From the NCBI GenBank assembly GCA_021814735.1, contig JAKAHX010000016.1:1-12995 (forward strand): DNA of 12,995 nt, read 5' to 3'. The position numbers were made by a program, and so were the translations under genes. Shown here in pieces: positions 1 through 12,995 of the stretch. The notes under the pieces were generated by a model, which did no database searches, was not told the origin of the DNA, and saw only the letters and a program-made list of their open reading frames with translations. The stretch is from Chloroflexota bacterium. GTDB lineage: Bacteria > Chloroflexota > Limnocylindria > Limnocylindrales > CSP1-4. Every line of letters starts with the position of its first letter. Positions within the stretch are counted from its first letter, which is position 1.

Positions 1-175
1 CGCGCGTGCCGACCAGGAGGTGTTTCCCGACCGCCTCGACGCTCACCACGGTCTGCCCTGTCAACCGTTCGACCGGCGCACCGCCCGGCCTCCCCCGTGC
101 AGCCGTGATGGTGCGTCCCTCCAGCACCGCGCGCAGCACCGCCGCGGTCCGGGCGAGCGTGTCTCCCTCCGGCAT
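1..175 (-). CDS. nei: Fpg/Nei-family DNA glycosylase, N-terminal part (cut by window edge)
   Basis: Base-excision repair enzyme (DNA glycosylase/AP lyase) that removes oxidised bases. Only the first 58 residues are in the window. I translated them by hand from the ATG at 175: the protein begins MPEGDTLARTA, the family signature. After removal of Met, the Pro becomes the N-terminal catalytic nucleophile and the next Glu is the catalytic acid. The later segment VEAVGKHLLVGTR carries the conserved Lys (K51) of the family. The start is certain because the Pro must be residue 2. The gene begins 9 bp after the lhr stop with no clear Shine-Dalgarno, so it is probably cotranscribed and translationally coupled with lhr. 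The same lhr-nei order is known in Mycobacterium tuberculosis (Rv3296-Rv3297). The MPEGDT form suggests the actinobacterial Nei type rather than Fpg/MutM (usually MPELPE), but the C-terminal zinc finger cannot be inspected. Confidence 0.9.
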   Translation of the reverse strand, partial: MPEGDTLARTAAVLRAVLEGRTITAARGRPGGAPVERLTGQTVVSVEAVGKHLLVGTR

Positions 176-184
176 GCGACGGCG

Positions 185-4912
<4,728 letters not shown>

Positions 4913-4920
4913 GGGAGAGA

Positions 4921-4926
4921 AGTATA
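4921..4926 (-). promoter_or_regulatory. Putative -10 box of lhr (leaderless promoter)
   Basis: On the minus strand TATACT lies 8 bp upstream of the GTG start of lhr. With a usual 6-8 bp distance from -10 box to transcription start, the mRNA would begin at or next to the start codon. There is no Shine-Dalgarno in the 20 bp upstream, which fits leaderless translation. No convincing -35 hexamer is seen. TATACT also stands out because the surroundings are very GC-rich. Confidence 0.5.
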
Positions 4927-5012
4927 GGGAGCGACCCCTCAGGGACCCCGCGGGCGGCCGGCGGGCGAGCCCGATGGAGCCGCGCGATGGTCCCCGGGCG
5001 TGCGGCGAGACG

Positions 5013-5468
5013 CTACCGTCGCGCCGCCGCGTACGCCTCCTGCGGCCGCACCACCAGCACCGGCACCCGGGAGTGGCGCACCACGTACTCTGAGACGCTG
5101 CCGAGCAGGAGACGCCCGATCACGCTGCGACCGTGCGTCCCCACCACGACCAGGTCCGCGGATTCAGCCTCCGCGGCCGCCACGATCGCCTCGCCCGGCT
5201 GGCCCTCCCAGGTGAGGTACGTGGCCGCGACGCCGGCGCGCAGCGCGTCGTCCACCACGGCCCTCGCGATCGCGTCGGCCTCCTCGCGCGCCGCCACGGC
5301 GGTGCCCGGGAACATGGCACTCGCGGCTGCCACCTCGGGCACGTTCACCACGTTGATGACGATCAGCCGCGCCTGCAGGCGCCCGGCCAGATCGATCGCC
5401 TCGTCTGCGGCCGCACTCGACGCCGGGGATCCGTCGGTGGCCACGAGGATCGTCTCGATCATCGCCAT
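5013..5468 (-). CDS. Universal stress protein (UspA family, ATP-binding type)
   Basis: Small cytoplasmic single-domain Usp of 151 aa, the normal family length. It opens with the typical beta-1 strand and loop ETILVATDGSPAS (5-17). It ends with the ATP-binding motif G-x2-G-x9-G-S (GTHG at 110-113, GS at 123-124), followed by VPVLVVRP (135-142). The complete motif predicts nucleotide binding. Usps of this type help survival under stress and growth arrest, and several belong to the DosR regulon of mycobacteria (established knowledge). The ATG at 5468 has an AAAGGAGG ribosome site ending 4 bp upstream. The ATG at 5462 would give the more usual short N-terminus with a 10-bp spacer, and either could be used. 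The gene stands alone, with about 300 bp of untranslated sequence upstream that holds an inverted repeat at 5565-5579, and lhr 100 bp downstream. Confidence 0.95.
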   Translation of the reverse strand: MAMIETILVATDGSPASSAAADEAIDLAGRLQARLIVINVVNVPEVAAASAMFPGTAVAAREEADAIARAVVDDALRAGVAATYLTWEGQPGEAIVAAAEAESADLVVVGTHGRSVIGRLLLGSVSEYVVRHSRVPVLVVRPQEAYAAARR

Positions 5469-5472
5469 GGCG

Positions 5473-5480
5473 CCTCCTTT
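5473..5480 (-). promoter_or_regulatory. Strong Shine-Dalgarno of the universal stress protein gene
   Basis: AAAGGAGG on the minus strand is the best ribosome-binding sequence in the window. It implies a leadered mRNA, unlike lhr and the CoA-transferase gene. Spacers are 4 bp to the ATG at 5468 and 10 bp to the ATG at 5462, so it does not decide the start. Confidence 0.7.
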
Positions 5481-5564
5481 CCTCCGCCCGAGCCTGCATC
5501 GCGCGCGCGGCGGGCGGCGTCTGCCGGACGGCCCGAACGCGCCGGTCAGCCGGCCCGGTTCCCC

Positions 5565-5579
5565 GGGACGCGCGGTCCC
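5565..5579. promoter_or_regulatory. Inverted repeat GGGAC-N5-GTCCC, candidate regulator site
   Basis: Perfect 5-bp arms GGGAC and GTCCC around GCGCG, centred about 104 bp upstream of the stress-protein ATG at 5468. The arms are the half-sites of the mycobacterial DosR consensus (core GGGACTWWAGTCCC), but the spacer here is 5 bp instead of 4, which would change helical phasing. It is a candidate only. Its support is its position upstream of a Usp gene and the DosR-like regulator encoded 5 kb away. Confidence 0.35.
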
Positions 5580-5771
5580 CGCTTGGCCCTCTCCGGCGCG
5601 GGGGGACGAGCGCTGGACCGAAACACGGATCGTGCCGCACGCACCCCCGGCCGCGGTGGCCCCAGGCCGACCGAGCCACCAGGTCGACGATCACGCGGGC
5701 GCGTCGCGCCCCGGCCGCGGACGGTGCGTCGACCAGACCGCGGTCACGCGCGGCGGTCCTGCGTGGTGCGC

Positions 5772-6149
5772 TCAGGCTGCGAGCGCCCGGAGCTGCCCGA
5801 CCAGGCTGGATCCCGAGAGCCGCTTGAGCAGCGTGGCACCCACGCCGCACCGCCGGGCATCCAGCCGCTCCTGCTGATCCCAGTACGACGCGAGGACCGC
5901 GATCCGGCTGTGCTCCAGCGGATCCGCGACCGCCCGCACCACCGGGCGCCACCCGCTGCGCAGGTCGCCGTCGACCAGTGCCACGTCGATCCGCGTCTCC
6001 CGGACCACGGCCGCAGCCTCGGCGGCGCTGGATACCCGGGCCACGATCTCGAAGCCGTGACGGGACAGGTAGTCCGACAGCGCGTCTCCCGCCGCGCGGT
6101 GATCGCTCACCAGGAGCAGGCGGAGGGGCTCGGCAGCGGGAGGTACCAT
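5772..6149 (-). CDS. Stand-alone receiver-domain protein, atypical active site
   Basis: 125 aa, essentially one CheY-like receiver domain with no output domain. Strand beta-1 reads LRLLLVSDHR (9-18), the phospho-acceptor region VALVDGDL gives Asp60, and the beta-5 loop GATLLKRL gives Lys109. Two conserved positions are altered: the first acid of the usual Asp-Asp pair is Ser15 (Asp16 remains), and the beta-4 Thr/Ser is Ala87 (LASYWD). Phosphorylation may therefore be weak or absent. Layout and wording resemble the receiver of the response regulator at 10324-10995 (LRLLVVDDHE, LTSYPDEE, GYLLKQ), suggesting a duplicated NarL-type receiver that lost its DNA-binding half. I chose the ATG at 6149 because the domain begins right after it. 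The frame stays open further upstream, but into low-complexity sequence. No good Shine-Dalgarno is seen. It is divergent from the Lon-family gene and shares its 170-bp upstream region, including the palindrome at 6207-6220. Confidence 0.8.
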   Translation of the reverse strand: MVPPAAEPLRLLLVSDHRAAGDALSDYLSRHGFEIVARVSSAAEAAAVVRETRIDVALVDGDLRSGWRPVVRAVADPLEHSRIAVLASYWDQQERLDARRCGVGATLLKRLSGSSLVGQLRALAA

Positions 6150-6206
6150 GCCGGAAGGTTGCCCACCCGAAGATGGAGGGCGAAGCGACGAAGAGGCCAA
6201 ATAACC

Positions 6207-6220
6207 GGGCCGTTCGGCCC
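6207..6220. promoter_or_regulatory. Palindrome GGGCC-GTTC-GGCCC, candidate DosR-type operator
   Basis: Arms extend to 6 bp (GGGCCG and CGGCCC around TT). It sits between the divergent receiver gene and Lon-family gene, centred about 64 bp upstream of the receiver ATG and 106 bp upstream of the Lon start. The same arrangement GGGCC-N4-GGCCC occurs at 10240-10253 and 8839-8852. It agrees with the DosR core consensus at the GGG-C and G-CCC positions and spacing. Binding is an inference. Confidence 0.5.
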
Positions 6221-6257
6221 TACGCACATCACAGCTGCGTGACGATGCTATCGGGCA

Positions 6258-6292
6258 AGGCGAACGCCGCAGGGGACGCGCGGCGTTCGCCT
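6258..6292 (+). other. Perfect 13-bp stem-loop in the leader of the Lon-family gene
   Basis: Arm AGGCGAACGCCGC (6258-6270) and its exact reverse complement (6280-6292) enclose a 9-base loop. It ends 27 bp before the GTG start at 6320 and lies just upstream of the ribosome site, so in plus-strand mRNA it would form a very stable 5' hairpin. It could protect the 5' end, restrict translation or act in attenuation. The following CTTGATT is only weakly T-rich and no plus-strand gene lies upstream within this gap, so an ordinary terminator is less likely. Confidence 0.65.
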
Positions 6293-6319
6293 CCTTGATT
6301 CCCGCGGCGGAGCAGCGAG

Positions 6320-8785
6320 GTGGCCAGGATGCAGTCCTCGACACCACACACCCCCGGTCCGCCGGATGCGGACGGCGCCCAGCTGGTCCCCGTGGAGCGG
6401 CTCCGGCGCCGCTGCGACCCCGCAGTCTTCACGTTCGCCTCCACCGCCGAACTGCGTCCGCTGGACCAGACGGTCGGCCAGCCGCGTGCCACGGGGGCGA
6501 TCGCGTTCGCCCTCGGGATCCACGATCCCGGCTACAACCTGTTCGTGCTCGGGCCGACCGGGACCGGCCGGCGCACCACCCTGCACGCGTATCTCGAGCG
6601 GGCGGCCCGGGAACGCCCCAGCCCACGCGACTGGGTCTACCTGTTCGACATGGCCAACCCGCGGCGACCGATCGCGGTCTCCTTCCCGGCCGGCCAGGCC
6701 GGGGCGTTCGCCCGTGACGTCGCGCGGTTCGTCGCGGATGCCGGCCGGGAGATCACGCGCGCCTTCGAGAGCGATGAGTATCGTCGCCGCGCCGGGCTGG
6801 TGACCTCGGAGACGGACGAACGCCGCCAGGCCACCCTGTCCGCCTTCCGCGCGGAGGCGGCGGTGCTTGGCCTGGGGCTCGAGTTCACCCCGGCCGGGAT
6901 CCTCACCCTCCCGATCCGCGACGGCCGGCCGATCCGGGCCGACGAGTTCGACCAGCTCTCCCCCGAGGAACGAGAGGTCTACCGGGAGCACGGCCACACA
7001 ATCGAGGAGCGGCTCCCTGACGTGCTGGCGCGCCTGCGCGCCCTCGAGCGCGAGGCCCGGGAGCGGATGGCGGCCCTCGACCGGGAGGTCGCCGTCTTCG
7101 CCATCGGGCACCTGCTCGACGAGCTCCGCGCCCGCCACGCCGGCATCGAACGCCTCGGCTCGTGGTTCGACGCGCTGCGGGACGACATGCTGGAGCACCT
7201 GGACCTGTTCCGCCCGACCGCGGAGGCCGAGACGGCGGACCAGGCCGGCCACGTGGCCCAGGAAGCACGCCAGGCCCGCGAGGCGATCCTCGGGCGCTAC
7301 GCGGTCAACGTGCTGGTGACGCACCAGCCGGATGCGCCCGCCCCGGTCGTCGACGAGCCCAGCCCCACCTACTACAACCTCTTCGGGCGGATCGAGTACA
7401 CGACCCTGATGGGCGTGGTCACCACGGACCATCGCAACATCCGCCCGGGCGCCATCCACCGGGCCAGCGGCGGCTTCCTGGTGCTCCGGGTCCAGGACCT
7501 CCTGGCAGATCCGCTCGCGTGGGAACGACTGAAGGACACCCTGCGAACGGGACAGGCGCGCGTCGAGAACATCGGCGCGCAGTACGTCCTCTTCCCCACC
7601 GCCACCCTGGAGCCCGAGCCGATCCCGGTGGACGTGAAGGTGGTGCTGGTGGGTCCGGCCGCCCTCTACCAGGCCCTCTACCTTGTCGACGAGGAGTTCC
7701 GGACGCTATTCAAGGTGCGCGCCGAGTTCGACGTCGAGATGCCGTGGGGCGACGCGGAGGCCGCGCTCTACGCGTCGTTCATCGCGGGGCACGTCCAGGC
7801 GTCCGGGCTCCACCATTTCACGCCAGAGGCGGTCGCGCGCGTCGTCGAGCACGGCGCACGGATCGCCGAACACCAGGAGCGGCTCTCCACCCGCTTCTCC
7901 GAGATCGTGGACCTGGTGACCGAGGCGAGCTACTGGGCCGGCCAGGCAGGCCGCGAGCTGGTGGCCGGCGAGGACGTGACCCGCGCGGTGCAGGCGCGCC
8001 AGGAACGGGCGGGCCTGGCCGAGGAACGGCTCCGACGGCTGATGGCCGAGGGGACGCTCCACATCCAGACCACGGGACAGACGGTCGGCCAGGTGAACGG
8101 GCTGGCCGTCCTGACCACCGGCGATCATGCCTTCGGTCAGCCGATCCGGATCACGGCCACCACGGGCGTGGGACCTGGCGAGGTGGTACACGTCGACCGC
8201 GAGACGGAGATGAGCGGCCGCATCCACACCAAGGGCTTCCTGATCGCCTCCGCGTTTCTCGCCGAGCGATACGGGCGGGCCCGTCCCCTCAACATCCGCG
8301 CCTCGGTGGCGGTCGAGCAGTCGTACGAGGCGATCGAGGGGGATTCGGCCTCGCTGGCCGAGATCTGCGCACTGCTCTCCAGCCTCGCGGACCTCCCGGT
8401 CCGGCAGGGGCTTGCGGTGACCGGTTCCATGGACCAGCACGGCGCCGCTCAGCCCGTGGGTGGGGTCAACGAGAAGATCGAGGGCTTCTTCCACGCCTGC
8501 CGGATCGGCGGGCTGACCGGCGACCAGGGCGTGATCCTCCCCGAAGCCAACATCCGCAACCTGATGCTCGCCCAGGACGTGCTCGACGCGGTGGAAGCCG
8601 GCACCTTCCACGTCTGGGCGGTGCGCGACGTCGACGACGCCCTCGGGCTCCTGACCGGGGTGCCGGCGGGACGGCGGGGCGAGGACGGGCGCTATCCCGA
8701 CGGGACCATCCACCGTCTGGTCGACGACCGCATCGCCTTCCTGGTGGACCAGGCGCGCCAGTTCACGTCGCCGCCCCAGCCCTGA
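6320..8785 (+). CDS. Lon-family serine protease with AAA_32-type ATPase region (LonB/LonC-like)
   Basis: 821-aa cytoplasmic protease lacking the N-terminal substrate domain of classical LonA. The C-terminal proteolytic domain is intact: catalytic Ser676 in EGDSAS (673-678) and Lys719 in GGVNEKI (714-720), preceded by KGFLIASAFLAERY (638-651). The ATPase half starts with GYNLFVLGPTGTGRRTT (71-87), a Walker A loop with Arg84 instead of Lys. The Walker B candidate GGFLVLRVQDLL (384-395) has Arg390 where an acidic residue would be expected. A long charged, probably helical insert (about 165-325) separates them. ATP dependence is therefore uncertain. ATP-independent LonC proteases of thermophiles have similarly altered motifs (established knowledge). 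Starts: GTG 6320 (GGAG 7 bp upstream) or ATG 6329 (GAGG 8 bp upstream). The gene is monocistronic and converges on the CoA-transferase gene. Confidence 0.92.
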   Translation: MARMQSSTPHTPGPPDADGAQLVPVERLRRRCDPAVFTFASTAELRPLDQTVGQPRATGAIAFALGIHDPGYNLFVLGPTGTGRRTTLHAYLERAARERPSPRDWVYLFDMANPRRPIAVSFPAGQAGAFARDVARFVADAGREITRAFESDEYRRRAGLVTSETDERRQATLSAFRAEAAVLGLGLEFTPAGILTLPIRDGRPIRADEFDQLSPEEREVYREHGHTIEERLPDVLARLRALEREARERMAALDREVAVFAIGHLLDELRARHAGIERLGSWFDALRDDMLEHLDLFRPTAEAETADQAGHVAQEARQAREAILGRYAVNVLVTHQPDAPAPVVDEPSPTYYNLFGRIEYTTLMGVVTTDHRNIRPGAIHRASGGFLVLRVQDLLADPLAWERLKDTLRTGQARVENIGAQYVLFPTATLEPEPIPVDVKVVLVGPAALYQALYLVDEEFRTLFKVRAEFDVEMPWGDAEAALYASFIAGHVQASGLHHFTPEAVARVVEHGARIAEHQERLSTRFSEIVDLVTEASYWAGQAGRELVAGEDVTRAVQARQERAGLAEERLRRLMAEGTLHIQTTGQTVGQVNGLAVLTTGDHAFGQPIRITATTGVGPGEVVHVDRETEMSGRIHTKGFLIASAFLAERYGRARPLNIRASVAVEQSYEAIEGDSASLAEICALLSSLADLPVRQGLAVTGSMDQHGAAQPVGGVNEKIEGFFHACRIGGLTGDQGVILPEANIRNLMLAQDVLDAVEAGTFHVWAVRDVDDALGLLTGVPAGRRGEDGRYPDGTIHRLVDDRIAFLVDQARQFTSPPQP

Positions 8786-8822
8786 GACCGCCGCGGCCCG
8801 GCGCAGCACCGGTCCTCCCGGG

Positions 8823-8838
8823 CGCCGGCATCCCGGCG
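8823..8838. terminator. Possible hairpin terminator between convergent genes
   Basis: CGCCGG-CATC-CCGGCG forms a 6-bp GC stem with a 4-base loop, 38 bp past the Lon-family stop. The GGGCC-N4-GGCCC element follows immediately at 8839-8852. There is no T-tract, so intrinsic termination is uncertain. Position between two converging genes is the main support. Confidence 0.35.
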
Positions 8839-8852
8839 GGGCCGGCAGGCCC
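8839..8852. repeat. Third GGGCC-N4-GGCCC element, in a convergent gap
   Basis: GGGCC-GGCA-GGCCC. With one base on each side it matches 14 of 16 positions of the element at 10239-10254 (GGGGCCGG..GGCCCG). No promoter is expected here because both flanking genes end at this gap, so as an operator it would be out of place. It may be a hairpin or a chance product of the GC-rich gap, and it tempers the operator reading of the other two copies. Confidence 0.5.
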
Positions 8853-8908
8853 GCCAGCACCGGTCCTCCCGGGCGCCGGCAGCGAGGCCTGCCCGGTGGA
8901 CCCGGGCG

Positions 8909-10180
8909 CTACAGGTAGTGGCGTCCGCGCGCGATGCAGTCGAGGTCGGCCCGGAAGTCCGGGTGCGCGATCGCGGTGAGCGCCCTCGCCCGTTCCGAGA
9001 TGCTGCGCCCGTGCAGATGCGCCACCCCCCACTCGGTGACCACTGTCTGGACGTGTGCGCGCGTGGTGACCACCCCGGCGCCCTCCTTGAGGGCGCACAC
9101 GATCCGGGAGGTCCTGCCGTCGGATGTCGTGGACGGGAGGGCGATGATGGAGAGCCCTTCCTCGGCCAGCGCCGCGCCGCGGACGAAGTCCATCTGGCCG
9201 CCGACACCGCTGTAGAGGCGCCAGCCGATGGAGTCCGCGCACACCTGTCCGGTGAGGTCGACCTCGATTGCCGAGTTGATCGAGCGCATGCGCCGGAACC
9301 GGCGGATCACGGCCGTATCGTTGGTGTAGTCGACCTCGCGCATCTCGACCATCGGGTTGTCGTCCGCGAAGTCGTAGAGGCGCTGGGTCCCCATCATGAA
9401 CGTGGCCACCACCTTGCCCCGGTCCAGTTCCTTGCGGGCCCCGGTGATCACGCCGGCCTCGACCAGGTCGACCACGTTGTCGGTGACCATCTCCGTGTGC
9501 ACGCCCAGGTCGTGCTTGTGGCGGAGCGCGAGGCCAACCGCACTCGGGATCGCGCCGATCCCCATCTGGAGCGTCGCCCCGTCGGGGATGAGGTCGGCGA
9601 CGTAGTCGGCGATGCGGCGTTCCACCTCGCCGGGCGCGCCGGGGTCGTGCACGTAGGGGGGCCGATGCACCTCGATCGCGAGATCGATCTCGGAGACGTG
9701 CAGGAAGCTGCTCCCGTGCGTTCGGGGGAGCGCGGAGTTGACCTGGGCGATGACGGTCTTCGCGCACCGCACCGCGGAAAGCGTGGCGTCCACCGAAGTG
9801 CCGAGCGAGCAGAAGCCGTGCGCGTCGGGCGGTGTGACGTTGATGAAGGCGGCGTCGAGCGGGACCAGGCCGCGGGTGAACAGGCCGGGGACGTCGGACA
9901 GGAAGACGGGGATGTACTCTGCGCGGCCCTCCGCGACCGCCTGCCGGGCGTTCGGCCCGATGAAGAGGGCGCGGTGCCGCAGGTGCCCCGCCATCTCGGG
10001 CGCCATGTGCGGCGCGGGCCCCTCCGCGTGCAGGTGGACGATCTTGACGTCCTCGAGGTCGAACGCGCGGGCGCAGAGCGCGTCCAGCAGCTCGGTGGGC
10101 GTGGCCGCCTCGGCCTGGACGAAGATCTGGTCGCCGGACCGGATGCCGGCCACGGCTTCCGCGGGGGTCACGATCCGCAT
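8909..10180 (-). CDS. Acetyl-CoA hydrolase/transferase family protein
   Basis: 423 aa, the size of single-subunit acetyl-CoA hydrolase / 4-hydroxybutyrate (or acetate) CoA-transferases. It probably exchanges CoA between acetyl-CoA and a carboxylic acid, or hydrolyses the thioester, in the cytoplasm. Visible family marks: LQMGIGAIPSAV (204-215), the catalytic-Glu loop GVHTEM (Glu230), the glycine-rich YSGVGGQMDFVRGA (323-336) and a C-terminal RARALTAIAHPDFR (397-410). Substrate cannot be told from sequence. The ATG at 10180 begins the standard MRIVTPAEAV. It lacks a Shine-Dalgarno, but TAGGCT lies 6 bp upstream, pointing to a leaderless mRNA. A GGGCC-N4-GGCCC palindrome is centred 66 bp upstream. 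The gene follows the response regulator on the same strand after 143 bp, so it likely has its own promoter, possibly under that regulator. In oxygen limitation such an enzyme would help acetate or fermentation-acid handling (inference). Confidence 0.92.
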   Translation of the reverse strand: MRIVTPAEAVAGIRSGDQIFVQAEAATPTELLDALCARAFDLEDVKIVHLHAEGPAPHMAPEMAGHLRHRALFIGPNARQAVAEGRAEYIPVFLSDVPGLFTRGLVPLDAAFINVTPPDAHGFCSLGTSVDATLSAVRCAKTVIAQVNSALPRTHGSSFLHVSEIDLAIEVHRPPYVHDPGAPGEVERRIADYVADLIPDGATLQMGIGAIPSAVGLALRHKHDLGVHTEMVTDNVVDLVEAGVITGARKELDRGKVVATFMMGTQRLYDFADDNPMVEMREVDYTNDTAVIRRFRRMRSINSAIEVDLTGQVCADSIGWRLYSGVGGQMDFVRGAALAEEGLSIIALPSTTSDGRTSRIVCALKEGAGVVTTRAHVQTVVTEWGVAHLHGRSISERARALTAIAHPDFRADLDCIARGRHYL

Positions 10181-10186
10181 GGACGG

Positions 10187-10192
10187 AGCCTA
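10187..10192 (-). promoter_or_regulatory. Putative -10 box of the CoA-transferase gene
   Basis: TAGGCT (fits TANNNT) on the minus strand ends 6 bp before the ATG at 10180, with no ribosome site between them, so transcription would start at or very near the ATG. The arrangement parallels that of lhr. No clear -35 is seen, as expected if an activator bound at 10240-10253 is needed. Confidence 0.4.
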
Positions 10193-10239
10193 TGGCGCGA
10201 AGCCTGCACGGGTAACGATCCGAACCGCGCCGCCTCGAG

Positions 10240-10253
10240 GGGCCGGAGGGCCC
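10240..10253. promoter_or_regulatory. Palindrome GGGCC-GGAG-GGCCC, candidate DosR-type operator
   Basis: Perfect 5-bp arms with a 4-bp spacer, centred about 66 bp upstream of the CoA-transferase ATG. The distance is almost the same as between the 6207-6220 palindrome and the receiver gene. The position suits a class I activator site. The arms match the invariant GGG-C / G-CCC positions of the DosR box. Confidence 0.5.
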
Positions 10254-10275
10254 GTCCACCGGACACGCGCCACGT

Positions 10276-10288
10276 CCCGCTCAGCGGG
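10276..10288 (-). terminator. Small hairpin downstream of the response regulator
   Basis: CCCGC-TCA-GCGGG forms a 5-bp stem with a 3-base loop, about 35 bp past the regulator stop. It lacks a T-tract. It might mark the end of the kinase-regulator transcript, together with the palindrome at 10304-10319. Confidence 0.25.
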
Positions 10289-10303
10289 TCGGGTGCTGCG
10301 TCG

Positions 10304-10319
10304 CACCGGCCGGCCGGTG
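10304..10319. repeat. 16-bp perfect palindrome just past the response-regulator stop
   Basis: CACCGGCCGGCCGGTG equals its own reverse complement and begins 5 bp beyond the regulator stop. It could be part of the transcript end or simply reflect GGCC-rich composition. No further role is visible. Confidence 0.4.
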
Positions 10320-10323
10320 TCGG

Positions 10324-10995
10324 CTACTCCGCGCCGGGGAGACGGTGACGGGCGACGAACGCGGCGGCCTGCGACCGACGCTGCAGGTTCAGCTTCGCAA
10401 GGATCGAGCTGACGTAGTTCTTGACCGTCTTGTCGGAGAGGAAGATCTCCGAGGCGATCTCCTTGTTGGTCTTCCCCTCGGCGATCAGCAGCAGGATCTT
10501 CTGCTCCTGGCGCGTCAGCTGCGCGAGCTCGTCGGTGTACGTGCCCGTGGCGATGCGCCGCACGCGGTCCAGGACCTTCTCGGTCACCGCGGGGTCGAGG
10601 AGCGACTCGCCCCGCCCCACCGCCTCGAGCGAGGAGACGAGGTCGCGGCCGCGGATCTGCTTGAGGAGATAGCCGCTCGCGCCGGCGACGATCGAGGCAA
10701 AGACCGCCTCCTCGTCGGGGTAGCTGGTCAGGATCACCACGCGCGTCTGGGGCATCTCCGAGCGGATCTCGCGGGTGGCCTCGATCCCGGACCCGTCGGG
10801 CAGACGCACGTCCATCACGATGAGGTCGGGCTGGTACTTGTGCGCAGACTCGATCGCCTCCGCCACCGTGCCCGCCTGCGCGACGACCTGGAAGCCCTCG
10901 CGTCGCTCGAGCAGCGAGACCAGTCCCTGGCGCACGACCTCGTGGTCGTCCACCACCAGGAGCCGCAGCGGCCTGGTTGTCGCCCCTTCAGTCAC
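10324..10995 (-). CDS. NarL/DosR-type response regulator
   Basis: 223-aa two-component transcription regulator. The receiver domain (about 10-125) has the acidic pair Asp16-Asp17, phospho-acceptor Asp62 (LIVMDVRLPDG), Thr90 and Lys112, all intact. The LuxR-type helix-turn-helix (about 160-217) contains LTRQEQKILLLIAEGKTNKEIA and the recognition helix KTVKNYVS. Lys189, Lys192 and Asn193 occupy the places of the mycobacterial DosR DNA-contact residues Lys179, Lys182 and Asn183, and the following LAKLNLQRRSQAA also resembles DosR. It therefore may read a GGGxC-type palindrome like those at 6207, 8839 and 10240 (inference). The GTG start at 10995 has GGAGGA 5 bp upstream. It lies 20 bp behind the histidine kinase in the same operon and is almost certainly its phospho-acceptor partner. 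Confidence 0.95.
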   Translation of the reverse strand: MTEGATTRPLRLLVVDDHEVVRQGLVSLLERREGFQVVAQAGTVAEAIESAHKYQPDLIVMDVRLPDGSGIEATREIRSEMPQTRVVILTSYPDEEAVFASIVAGASGYLLKQIRGRDLVSSLEAVGRGESLLDPAVTEKVLDRVRRIATGTYTDELAQLTRQEQKILLLIAEGKTNKEIASEIFLSDKTVKNYVSSILAKLNLQRRSQAAAFVARHRLPGAE

Positions 10996-11000
10996 CGTCG

Positions 11001-11006
11001 TCCTCC
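11001..11006 (-). promoter_or_regulatory. Shine-Dalgarno of the response regulator
   Basis: GGAGGA, 5 bp upstream of the GTG at 10995, supports that non-ATG start. It lies in the 20-bp space after the kinase stop. Confidence 0.7.
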
Positions 11007-11015
11007 GATCCCCGC

Positions 11016-12629
11016 TCAGGCCGCGCCGGTCACGGCTCCCCCGAGCGGCACGCGGACCGCCACCCGGGTCCCGCGCCCAACGCCGCTCTCGACGAGGAGT
11101 TCCCCACCGAGCTCGGATGCGCGCGTGCGCATGTTACCGAGTCCCATGTGACCCGGCCCGCGCCTGGCGGACGGGTCGAACCCCACGCCATCATCCACGA
11201 TGGCCAGTTCCAGTGCACGCTCCCCGGCGCGAAGCCGGATCTCGGCGTGGTTCGCGCGCGCGTGGCGCGCCACGTTGCTCAGCGCCTCGCGGGTGAGGTG
11301 CAGGAGCTGCATCGTGTCGTCGGCGGGGATCTCGAAGTCGGCGGGGCCATCCACCTCGAGCGCGATGTCGATCATGGTGTTGACCCGGAACTCCTCGGCC
11401 ATGGCGGCGAGCGCCTCGACCAGCCCGGCCTGGTCCAGCGGCTCCGGCCGGAGGCCGAAGATGAAGTTGCGGATGTCCCGGATGGTCAGGTTGATCGACT
11501 CGATCGCGTGCTCGATCTTCTCCGCGGCGGCGGTCGAATCGTTCGGCAGTTCTTCCAGGGCGTCGTCCAGCATCAGCCCCACCGCGTAGATGCTCTGGAT
11601 GACGCCGTCGTGGAGGTCGCGACCGATGCGCTGGCGTTCCTCGAGGATCGCCAGCCGTTGCTCCTGCTCGTGGAGCCTCGCGTTCTCCATGGCGATCCCC
11701 GCGTGGGCGGCGAAGCGCTCCACCAGCCGCTGGTCGGCATCGGTGAACGGCGTGCCGTCCTCCTTGTCCGTCAGGTAGAGGTCGCCGATGACGCGGCCGC
11801 GTGCGGTGACAGGCACACCGAGGAGGCTGTGCATCGGCGGGTGGTGCGGCGGAAACCCGACGCTCCGCGGGTGGGCCGTGATGTCGGGGACGCGGATCGC
11901 GCGGGCCTCCTCGACGATCATCCCCAGCAGCCCGTGACCCCGCGGTGGCGGACCGATGCGCTCGCGCTCCGCCCGGCTGAGGCCGCTGGTGATGAAGGGG
12001 TCGATCTGGCGCTGCTCGTCCAGCACGCCGAGCGCGGCATACCGGGCGCCCACCAGGCGCCGCACGTTGTCCACGATCGGCTGGAGCACCCGTTCCGCCG
12101 ACAGCACGCCCGCGATGCCGCGCGTGGCATCGTCCAGGGCCGCCAGCTGCTCCTCCCGGGCGCGCGCGGTGGCCACGGCATGGGCCCTCGAGGCCACCAG
12201 CTCGACGACCCTTCCAGCCGACGTCGCCGCCTCGTGCGGGCCGTCGACGAGCAGTTCACCCAGGTCGTCGGACTCGTCTGCCGTCCGGAGCACGCGTCGC
12301 TCGAGGTCCGGCGCACGCCCACCGGCGGGCGCGCGCCGCAGCGACCCCACCCCGACCTCGACCGCCGGCAGCGGCCCTCGCAGCACCAGCCGGATCCCGG
12401 ACAGCTGCCGCGCGGCGGCGTACGCCCCCAGCGCCTTCGAGAGCTGCGCACGCTCGGGCGCGCCGGAGGTGCGTGTCCACGCCTCCACGGCCTCGAGCAG
12501 CTCCACGAGTGGGTCCAGGGAGGACGGCCCACTGCCGGCCGGGAGGCCGCCGTCATCGACGAGCGCCGTCCCGGCCGGGGCGGGCGCTGGGTCCTGGGAC
12601 TCGGCGCCGCGGGTGCCGGTCCGGCTCAT
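11016..12629 (-). CDS. GAF-domain sensor histidine kinase, DevS/DosT-like
   Basis: 537 aa, no membrane segments, so a cytoplasmic sensor. Order: Pro/Ala-rich start; a weak GAF-like region (about 55-160); a clear GAF domain (about 170-320); a HisKA_3 segment RQRIGRDLHDGVIQ with phospho-His340; and an HATPase domain with N box TREALSN (446-452), VDDGVGFD (478-485) and GHMGLGN (493-499). The GAF holds FPPHHPPMHSLLGVP and GDLYLTDK. His263 and Tyr285 are 22 residues apart, as I recall for the haem-ligating His149 and distal Tyr171 of M. tuberculosis DevS, so haem-based sensing of O2, NO or CO is possible. Unlike DevS, this GAF is next to the kinase instead of at the N-terminus. The ATG at 12629 overlaps the upstream stop as ATGA. 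An in-frame ATG at 12644 would add five residues. It phosphorylates the regulator encoded next. Confidence 0.93.
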   Translation of the reverse strand: MSRTGTRGAESQDPAPAPAGTALVDDGGLPAGSGPSSLDPLVELLEAVEAWTRTSGAPERAQLSKALGAYAAARQLSGIRLVLRGPLPAVEVGVGSLRRAPAGGRAPDLERRVLRTADESDDLGELLVDGPHEAATSAGRVVELVASRAHAVATARAREEQLAALDDATRGIAGVLSAERVLQPIVDNVRRLVGARYAALGVLDEQRQIDPFITSGLSRAERERIGPPPRGHGLLGMIVEEARAIRVPDITAHPRSVGFPPHHPPMHSLLGVPVTARGRVIGDLYLTDKEDGTPFTDADQRLVERFAAHAGIAMENARLHEQEQRLAILEERQRIGRDLHDGVIQSIYAVGLMLDDALEELPNDSTAAAEKIEHAIESINLTIRDIRNFIFGLRPEPLDQAGLVEALAAMAEEFRVNTMIDIALEVDGPADFEIPADDTMQLLHLTREALSNVARHARANHAEIRLRAGERALELAIVDDGVGFDPSARRGPGHMGLGNMRTRASELGGELLVESGVGRGTRVAVRVPLGGAVTGAA

Positions 12630-12995
12630 GACCGGCGCTCCCAACCAGCGGCAGCCGCCGCCCGGCCCAGGCCCTCGGCCGGCGACGACCCGCGGTCGAG
12701 CTCCGCGGCGTAGCGCCCCAGCATCTCGGCAAACGCGCCACCGTCCTCGTCAGGCGCCACGACCACCGTCGCGGTCGACGCGAGTCGCTGGCCCGGCGTT
12801 ACGCCGGCGGGCAGCACGGCGATCACCTGCGCACCCCGCCAGGCTGCCGCATCGAGGGCCGCCGCCTCCGCCGCGGGATCGAGCGGCTCGGCGAGCACCA
12901 GCACGCCGAACTCGAGGATGTACTCGAGCCCCAGCTCCACGTCGGCAGCATCCAGGCGCACCCACCGAGTGTCCGCCGGCGGGATGCCCTCCGGC
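12626..12995 (-). CDS. Unrecognised gene, 3' part; possibly PfkB/ribokinase-like (cut by window edge)
   Basis: The frame is open to the window edge; about 122 C-terminal residues are visible. Hand translation beyond the internal GTG at 12961 continues PEGIPPADTRWV, so the real start lies outside. The stretch LVLAEPLDPAAEAAALDAAAWRGAQVIAVLPAG followed by LASTATVVVAPDEDGG resembles, in order and spacing, the middle of ribokinase/PfkB sugar kinases. The strand ends in a residue pair near an Asn/Asp-x-Glu motif (ANETE-like). The protein stops about 30 residues later (AAAAGWERRS), so the catalytic GAGD segment of true PfkB kinases is missing here. It could thus be a degenerate non-catalytic fold or an unrelated protein. 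The stop overlaps the kinase start (ATGA), so the two are translationally coupled, which hints at a part in the same signalling unit. Confidence 0.4.
   Translation of the reverse strand, partial: PEGIPPADTRWVRLDAADVELGLEYILEFGVLVLAEPLDPAAEAAALDAAAWRGAQVIAVLPAGVTPGQRLASTATVVVAPDEDGGAFAEMLGRYAAELDRGSSPAEGLGRAAAAAGWERRS

Follow-up and report, generated by a model that had tools for sequence, protein, structure and literature searches.

DosS-type oxygen-sensing kinases help tuberculosis bacteria enter dormancy. In mycobacterial DevS (also DosS) and DosT, a haem-type GAF domain (GAF-A) with a ligand His and a distal Tyr is followed by a second GAF domain (GAF-B) and by a HisKA_3 plus HATPase_c kinase core, and a DevR-type regulator and DevR-type boxes lie nearby. 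DevS/DevR-like pairs are also described from other Actinobacteria: OsdK/OsdR of Streptomyces coelicolor, with stress-protein genes nearby (PMC5069765), and PolS/PolR of Microlunatus phosphovorus, which has a proposed oxygen role and two N-terminal GAF domains in the DevS layout (PMC6754071). The haem sensor treated in PMC11537054 is a PAS domain, not a GAF domain. Here we describe a sensor histidine kinase of 537 amino acids (open reading frame 11016..12629, minus strand) encoded in a 12,995-nucleotide stretch of DNA from a Chloroflexota bacterium (contig JAKAHX010000016.1, positions 1 to 12,995; "the window"). The locus has the haem-type GAF with His and Tyr, the kinase core, the DevR-type regulator and the nearby boxes of the mycobacterial systems, and the neighbouring stress-protein genes of OsdK/OsdR, but its haem GAF adjoins the kinase core directly. 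Judging from sequence, we think it quite probable that this kinase is a haem-based gas sensor of the DosS/DosT type that senses O2 directly, with the haem GAF straight on the kinase, a DevR-like partner and boxes nearby.

The haem-type GAF domain (residues 177-323; 11661..12101, minus strand) is homologous to DevS/DosT GAF-A over its full length, with 47-50% identity to proven haem domains. Alignment with DevS and DosT places His263 (HPPM; 11841..11843, minus strand) at the haem ligand, DevS His149 or DosT His147, and Tyr285 (LYLTDK; 11775..11777, minus strand) at the distal residue, DevS Tyr171 or DosT Tyr169, which confirms the claim of a first-pass annotation that the two residues, 22 apart, match the DevS pair. 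In a family alignment of 120 sequences (the window plus 119 of 120 listed homologs, the best 120 of 6974), His263 is kept in 119 members and Tyr285 in all 120. All 83 loci whose match to the GAF of the window has an E value of 1e-15 or lower, the window copy included, likewise have both residues, but these loci had been selected for their resemblance to DevS or the window.

The annotation had also cautioned that the HPPM segment may be widespread, and the caution was justified. With a Thermomicrobium roseum GAF kinase as control query, the His is kept in 119 of the 120 homologs listed (of 2943) and the Tyr in none, the Tyr position being Gly in 119 and Val in one. The presence of an HPP-His therefore says little by itself, and we did not accept it as proof that a GAF binds haem. 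This large GAF-kinase family (L017 and P0121-P0240), in which the His stands mostly in HPPV and Gly replaces Tyr, resembles the window kinase in having a GAF directly on a HisKA_3 kinase and an HPP segment with His; it differs in the Gly at the Tyr position and in having no IG...GxG edge motif. The existence of the segment without the full haem signature is what favors the view that HPPM is a structural feature of the GAF superfamily, with another ligand or none and no haem. Against this view stand the identity to proven haem domains and the residues that join the His: Ile225-Gly226, Gly231-x-Gly233, Met266 and Tyr285 occur along with it both in the family of the window and among actinobacterial GAF-A domains, but not in the His-only family. 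We consider a haem-free GAF decidedly unlikely.

A 91-row tree, midpoint-rooted only and with 20 of its 84 inner branches open, sets the control family apart from the haem-type GAFs. In this tree, actinobacterial GAF-A and three loci of other phyla (L057, L059 and L061) form one group at 94/96. L059, a second Chloroflexota locus, has the domain order of the window. Among the window's homologs, P0028, P0034 and P0047 (52-54% identity) carry Limnocylindrales names, and P0051 is named as Dormibacteraeota; by the first three names alone, the host probably belongs to the Limnocylindrales. Alignment, fold, pocket residues and tree together strongly support the predicted assignment of the window GAF to the haem-binding DevS/DosT type, in agreement with the annotation. 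A ferrochelatase gene is present in the same genome, so haem synthesis is plausible. A GAF 48% identical to that of the window, with both His and Tyr, is found on a SpoIIE-family phosphatase of a Streptomyces sp. NBC_00055 plasmid (L194:2360-3718); the haem GAF may therefore be a portable input for phosphatases too.

Which ligand the haem would report bears on a further residue. The window has Gly201 (12027..12029, minus strand) at the position of DosT Gly85, where DevS has Glu87; Gly is found there in 119 of the 120 aligned members, the window included. As in DosT, a stable O2 complex is therefore predicted, and with it direct O2 sensing. The GAF could instead bind haem as a redox sensor (ferric/ferrous, as some have proposed for DevS) or as an NO/CO sensor, since the pocket belongs to the same class as that of DevS, whose gas versus redox sensing is disputed in a review. 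The Gly argues against a redox sensor, because Glu87 is the proposed cause of autooxidation in DevS and because DosT, with Gly, forms a stable O2 complex according to the same review, although conflicting autooxidation data, also noted there, obscure the Glu87 argument. We regard redox or NO/CO sensing as unlikely, and direct O2 sensing as the preferred reading.

The main departure from DevS/DosT is in the layout. Pfam places GAF_2 at residues 177-315, HisKA_3 at 331-397 and HATPase_c at 438-529 of the kinase, with no match before residue 177, N-terminal region included. The HisKA_3 dimerisation/phospho-acceptor domain (11439..11639, minus strand), with H-box His340 (DLHDG; present in 120 of 120 aligned members), and the HATPase_c catalytic domain (11043..11318, minus strand) form a core like that of the DevS/DosT haem sensor kinases. 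Between the end of the haem GAF and the H-box motif there are 6 residues and no further GAF, so the annotation's statement that it adjoins the kinase stands, and Pfam, predicted structure and spacing all differ from the GAF-A(haem)-GAF-B-kinase layout. The corresponding gap is 170-198 residues in 37 mycobacterial and Nocardia loci (L020-L056; the full-length mycobacterial genes are from species other than M. tuberculosis, DevS and DosT themselves being compared only as PDB chains) and 176-203 residues in the Streptomyces DevS-like kinases compared (L010, L011, L018 and L060; OsdK is not among them). Because its domains do not follow the GAF-A/GAF-B/kinase order, we do not file the kinase as a DevS/DosT member; most likely it works like one.

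In front of the haem GAF lies a domain that DevS and DosT do not have (residues ~39-172; 12114..12515, minus strand). Its predicted fold (two helices, four strands and a long helix) may be that of a reduced GAF/PHY-like domain, as in the annotation's "degenerate GAF-like" description, although Pfam gives it no match. A GAF-like first domain, in a comparison with a DevS that also has two GAFs, might suggest a true domain swap, with GAF-B moved to the front. Yet the first domain is absent in at least 10 of the 29 best-matching relatives fetched, in which the haem GAF is still on the kinase, and it has a reduced fold outside Pfam; a swap is highly improbable. All 29 relatives, chosen by whole-kinase similarity, which favors the same layout, have the haem GAF directly on the kinase. 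Accordingly, of the annotation's "rewired" sensor, the absence of GAF-B between haem GAF and kinase holds up, and there is no sign that DevS domains traded places. Two further kinases bear on the distribution of layouts. In a DevS-like kinase of a Tsukamurella tyrosinosolvens plasmid (L015:2387-3553), which has His and Tyr, 15 residues separate the haem GAF from the H-box motif, so direct haem GAF-kinase coupling also occurs in Actinobacteria; unlike the window kinase, this annotated 388-aa protein has no N-terminal GAF-like domain. Conversely, the DevS-like kinase of an Anaerolineae metagenome-assembled genome (L061) is a Chloroflexota protein whose haem-type GAF has both His and Tyr but which follows the DevS order (haem GAF 40-187, then a second GAF 270-361), so Actinobacteria are not alone in having the DevS layout. 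The L061 GAF, like that of L059, falls with actinobacterial GAF-A in the tree.

The gene next to the kinase, on the same strand, encodes a DevR-like response regulator with a receiver domain and a LuxR/NarL-type helix-turn-helix (10324..10995, minus strand; recognition helix KTVKN). Its best solved-structure match is DevR (3c3w; E 1.3e-56, 194.5 bits), with VraR next at 166; among the best 25 of its 108 NCBIfam matches none is above cut-off. We examined 21 loci, the window plus one from each of 20 relatives (L122-L141) picked for long contigs from 31 matching at E 1e-90 or better. A homologous regulator stands beside the kinase in all 21, and all 21 regulators have the K-x2-K-N of the DevR recognition helix, which by counting in the regulator/DevR alignment corresponds to DevR Lys179, Lys182 and Asn183, residues that we take to be DNA contacts.

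Candidate sites for such a regulator are found in the window. The OsdR box consensus, AGGGCCGATCGGCCCT, is reported to conform to that of M. tuberculosis (PMC5069765). A DevR/OsdR-type box, CGGGCCGTTCGGCCCT (6207..6220; 16-mer 6206-6221), lies in the divergent promoter region between a receiver gene and a Lon-like gene and is identical in two same-genus relatives (L122 and L141), also upstream of the Lon-like gene; a second, GGGGCCGGAGGGCCCG (10240..10253), lies ~60 bp upstream of a CoA-transferase gene; a third match (8839..8852), between convergent gene ends, is probably no promoter site. The pattern GGGMC-N4-GKCCC thus occurs 3 times in the window vs. 0.58 expected, and at least 3 times in 4 of 200 shuffles.

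Across the 21 loci (367,656 bases), GGGMC and GKCCC form 36 pairs at spacing 4, and each other spacing from 0 to 14 has 3-14; in 20 control regions (369,017 bases) hand-picked from 17 of the same genomes, there are 11 at spacing 4 and 3-10 at others. With genes called by a home-made program, 32 of these 36 sites are intergenic (13.9% of bases), vs. 2 of 11 in the controls (11.9% of bases). Binomial values are 1e-23 for intergenic position and 1.6e-4 for 36 vs. 11, on an assumption of independence that close relatives violate. In 49 actinobacterial DevS-type loci, a positive control, the pattern occurs 39 times at spacing 4 vs. 0-8 times at others. Spacing, control regions and intergenic position are the informative controls. 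Permuted half-sites at spacing 4 rank GGGMC eighth of 20 by raw count, tied, and a related permutation, GGGCM, likewise has its peak at spacing 4 (ratio 4.0 vs. 5.8 for GGGMC); GGGMC has a weak peak in control regions too (2.1). The exact GGGACN4GTCCC, with 7 occurrences in the window's own genome vs. 5 for the reversed pattern, is not informative, and with 2 mismatches allowed the window gives 12 matches vs. 23.5 expected.

Taking genes within ~350 bp downstream of boxes as candidate targets, we find in the window an acetyl-CoA hydrolase/CoA-transferase family protein (8909..10180, minus strand; PF13336 and PF02550, below NCBIfam cut-offs), a Lon-like (LonB/LonC type) AAA protease (6329..8785, plus strand; Pfam scan on 6323-8785) and a single receiver-domain protein (5772..6149, minus strand; just under the Pfam cut-off, 29.9 vs. 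30.2 bits). A universal stress protein (Usp) gene (5013..5468, minus strand; Pfam) belongs to the same cluster. CoA-transferase genes are box-downstream in the window, L124, L129, L133 and L141; in 6 of 13 loci the gene start is preceded by its best site at a distance of 57-59 bp. Four of these sites match exactly, and a fifth exact match stands at 80 bp; for L122 and L127, two of the six, the footprint is not significant locus by locus. Lon-like proteases recur in L122 and L141, and receiver-domain proteins in L126 and L141. Elsewhere the box-downstream genes encode pyruvate-type 2-oxoacid:ferredoxin oxidoreductases (L127, L130, L134), cyclic-nucleotide-binding proteins (L124, L129, L135), a Usp (L130; in L133 a Usp-matching gene is divergent from the kinase), a zinc alcohol dehydrogenase (L129), a short-chain dehydrogenase (L137), a histone-deacetylase-family protein (L125), DoxX-like proteins (L131, L138), copper proteins (L131, L136) and, in L131 and L133, the kinase itself. 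Of the 19 candidate-target proteins scanned, 3 have no Pfam match. This combination of enzymes agrees with a response to low oxygen, and the genes around the window kinase support a role in gas sensing. Two side observations concern neighboring genes. The L127 oxidoreductase (13773-16118) has an N-terminal receiver-like domain, sub-threshold at 28.3 vs. 30.2 bits. Directly upstream of the window kinase, the stop of a partial gene (12626-12994, minus strand) overlaps the kinase start (ATGA), and a longer copy in L122 matches PfkB below the threshold (18 vs. 25.8 bits); the kinase may therefore be translationally coupled to a sugar-kinase-like gene.

From the computed homology, residue equivalence, layout, partner gene and local box enrichment, we infer haem binding, ligand, phosphotransfer and regulation, with the switching direction taken from DosS/DosT. 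His263 would hold haem b, and Tyr285 would form a hydrogen bond to O2. With O2 on the haem the kinase would stay inactive; with deoxy (or NO/CO-bound) haem the kinase would be free to autophosphorylate at His340, the signal passing from haem GAF to kinase helix directly, without the intervening GAF-B of DevS. The phosphate would then pass to the adjacent regulator. Bound to GGGMC-N4-GKCCC boxes in promoters close by, the phosphorylated regulator would turn on genes for fermentation and stress: here the CoA-transferase, the Lon-like protease and the receiver protein, and in relatives 2-oxoacid:ferredoxin oxidoreductase, stress proteins and others.

Several observations count against this proposal. 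One homolog, P0093, has Gln at the His263 position with Tyr kept, a natural ligand-loss variant or an error. Only 5 of 11 distal/edge haem-contact residues named for DosT are identical in the window GAF, and one of the five, Arg222, is also variable in mycobacterial GAF-A (Arg in 12 of 39 hits). The full-length kinase model has a pTM of 0.66, so kinase domain placement is uncertain. GAF-B is not without effect in DosS, since its fusion to GAF-A alters CO and NO binding (PMC4082495). The exact box is absent in 5 of the 20 relatives' loci, and no significant box lies upstream of the regulator gene or the Usp gene in the window. Over the window's own genome, the box GGGMCGNNCGKCCC occurs 15 times vs. 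23 for the reversed pattern, and over 61 genomes the longer box AGGGMCSNNSGKCCCT sums to 29 vs. 31, so that the box excess is local.

This lack of genome-wide enrichment speaks for a further rival, in which the boxes would belong to another regulator and the kinase-regulator pair would do something else, for example as a NarL- or VraR-like system; the regulator also resembles VraR and NarL among solved structures, and the kinase core, for which NCBIfam gives no match above cut-off, resembles MctS and NarQ/NarX below the cut-offs. But DevR leads the other solved matches by 28 bits, the same pattern and spacing are enriched in actinobacterial DevS-type loci and match the published OsdR consensus, and sites thin out away from the gene pair (21, 8 and 4 per 3-kb bin in 20 loci). 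We give little credence to such a foreign regulator and retain the DosS/DosT-type gas sensor.

Among the papers listed from the open-licence PMC literature, judged by titles and abstract starts, we recognised no haem-GAF or DosR-type system in Nitrolancea, Chloroflexi, Chloroflexota or Limnocylindrales. The parts are known; for the layout, and for a DosR-type box system outside Actinobacteria, we did not find a precedent in that literature. On balance we favor, with some reserve, the view that DosRS-type oxygen sensing operates outside Actinobacteria, in Limnocylindria-like Chloroflexota, through a naturally shortened sensor in which the haem signal reaches the kinase helix directly, and controls local anaerobic-metabolism and stress genes via DosR-type boxes. 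If so, GAF-B, whose role in DevS is unexplained, would be dispensable for haem-to-kinase signalling, and the haem GAF would be a portable module, found also on a Streptomyces SpoIIE-type phosphatase. A natural family in which the kinase directly carries the haem GAF, and some of whose members are too short at the front for a further sensor domain, would offer a minimal system for how haem ligation controls a kinase. The box analysis would carry the DosR-type regulon, actinobacterial in the cited literature, into another phylum and tie it to fermentation enzymes, so that an oxygen-sensing role would be directly testable.
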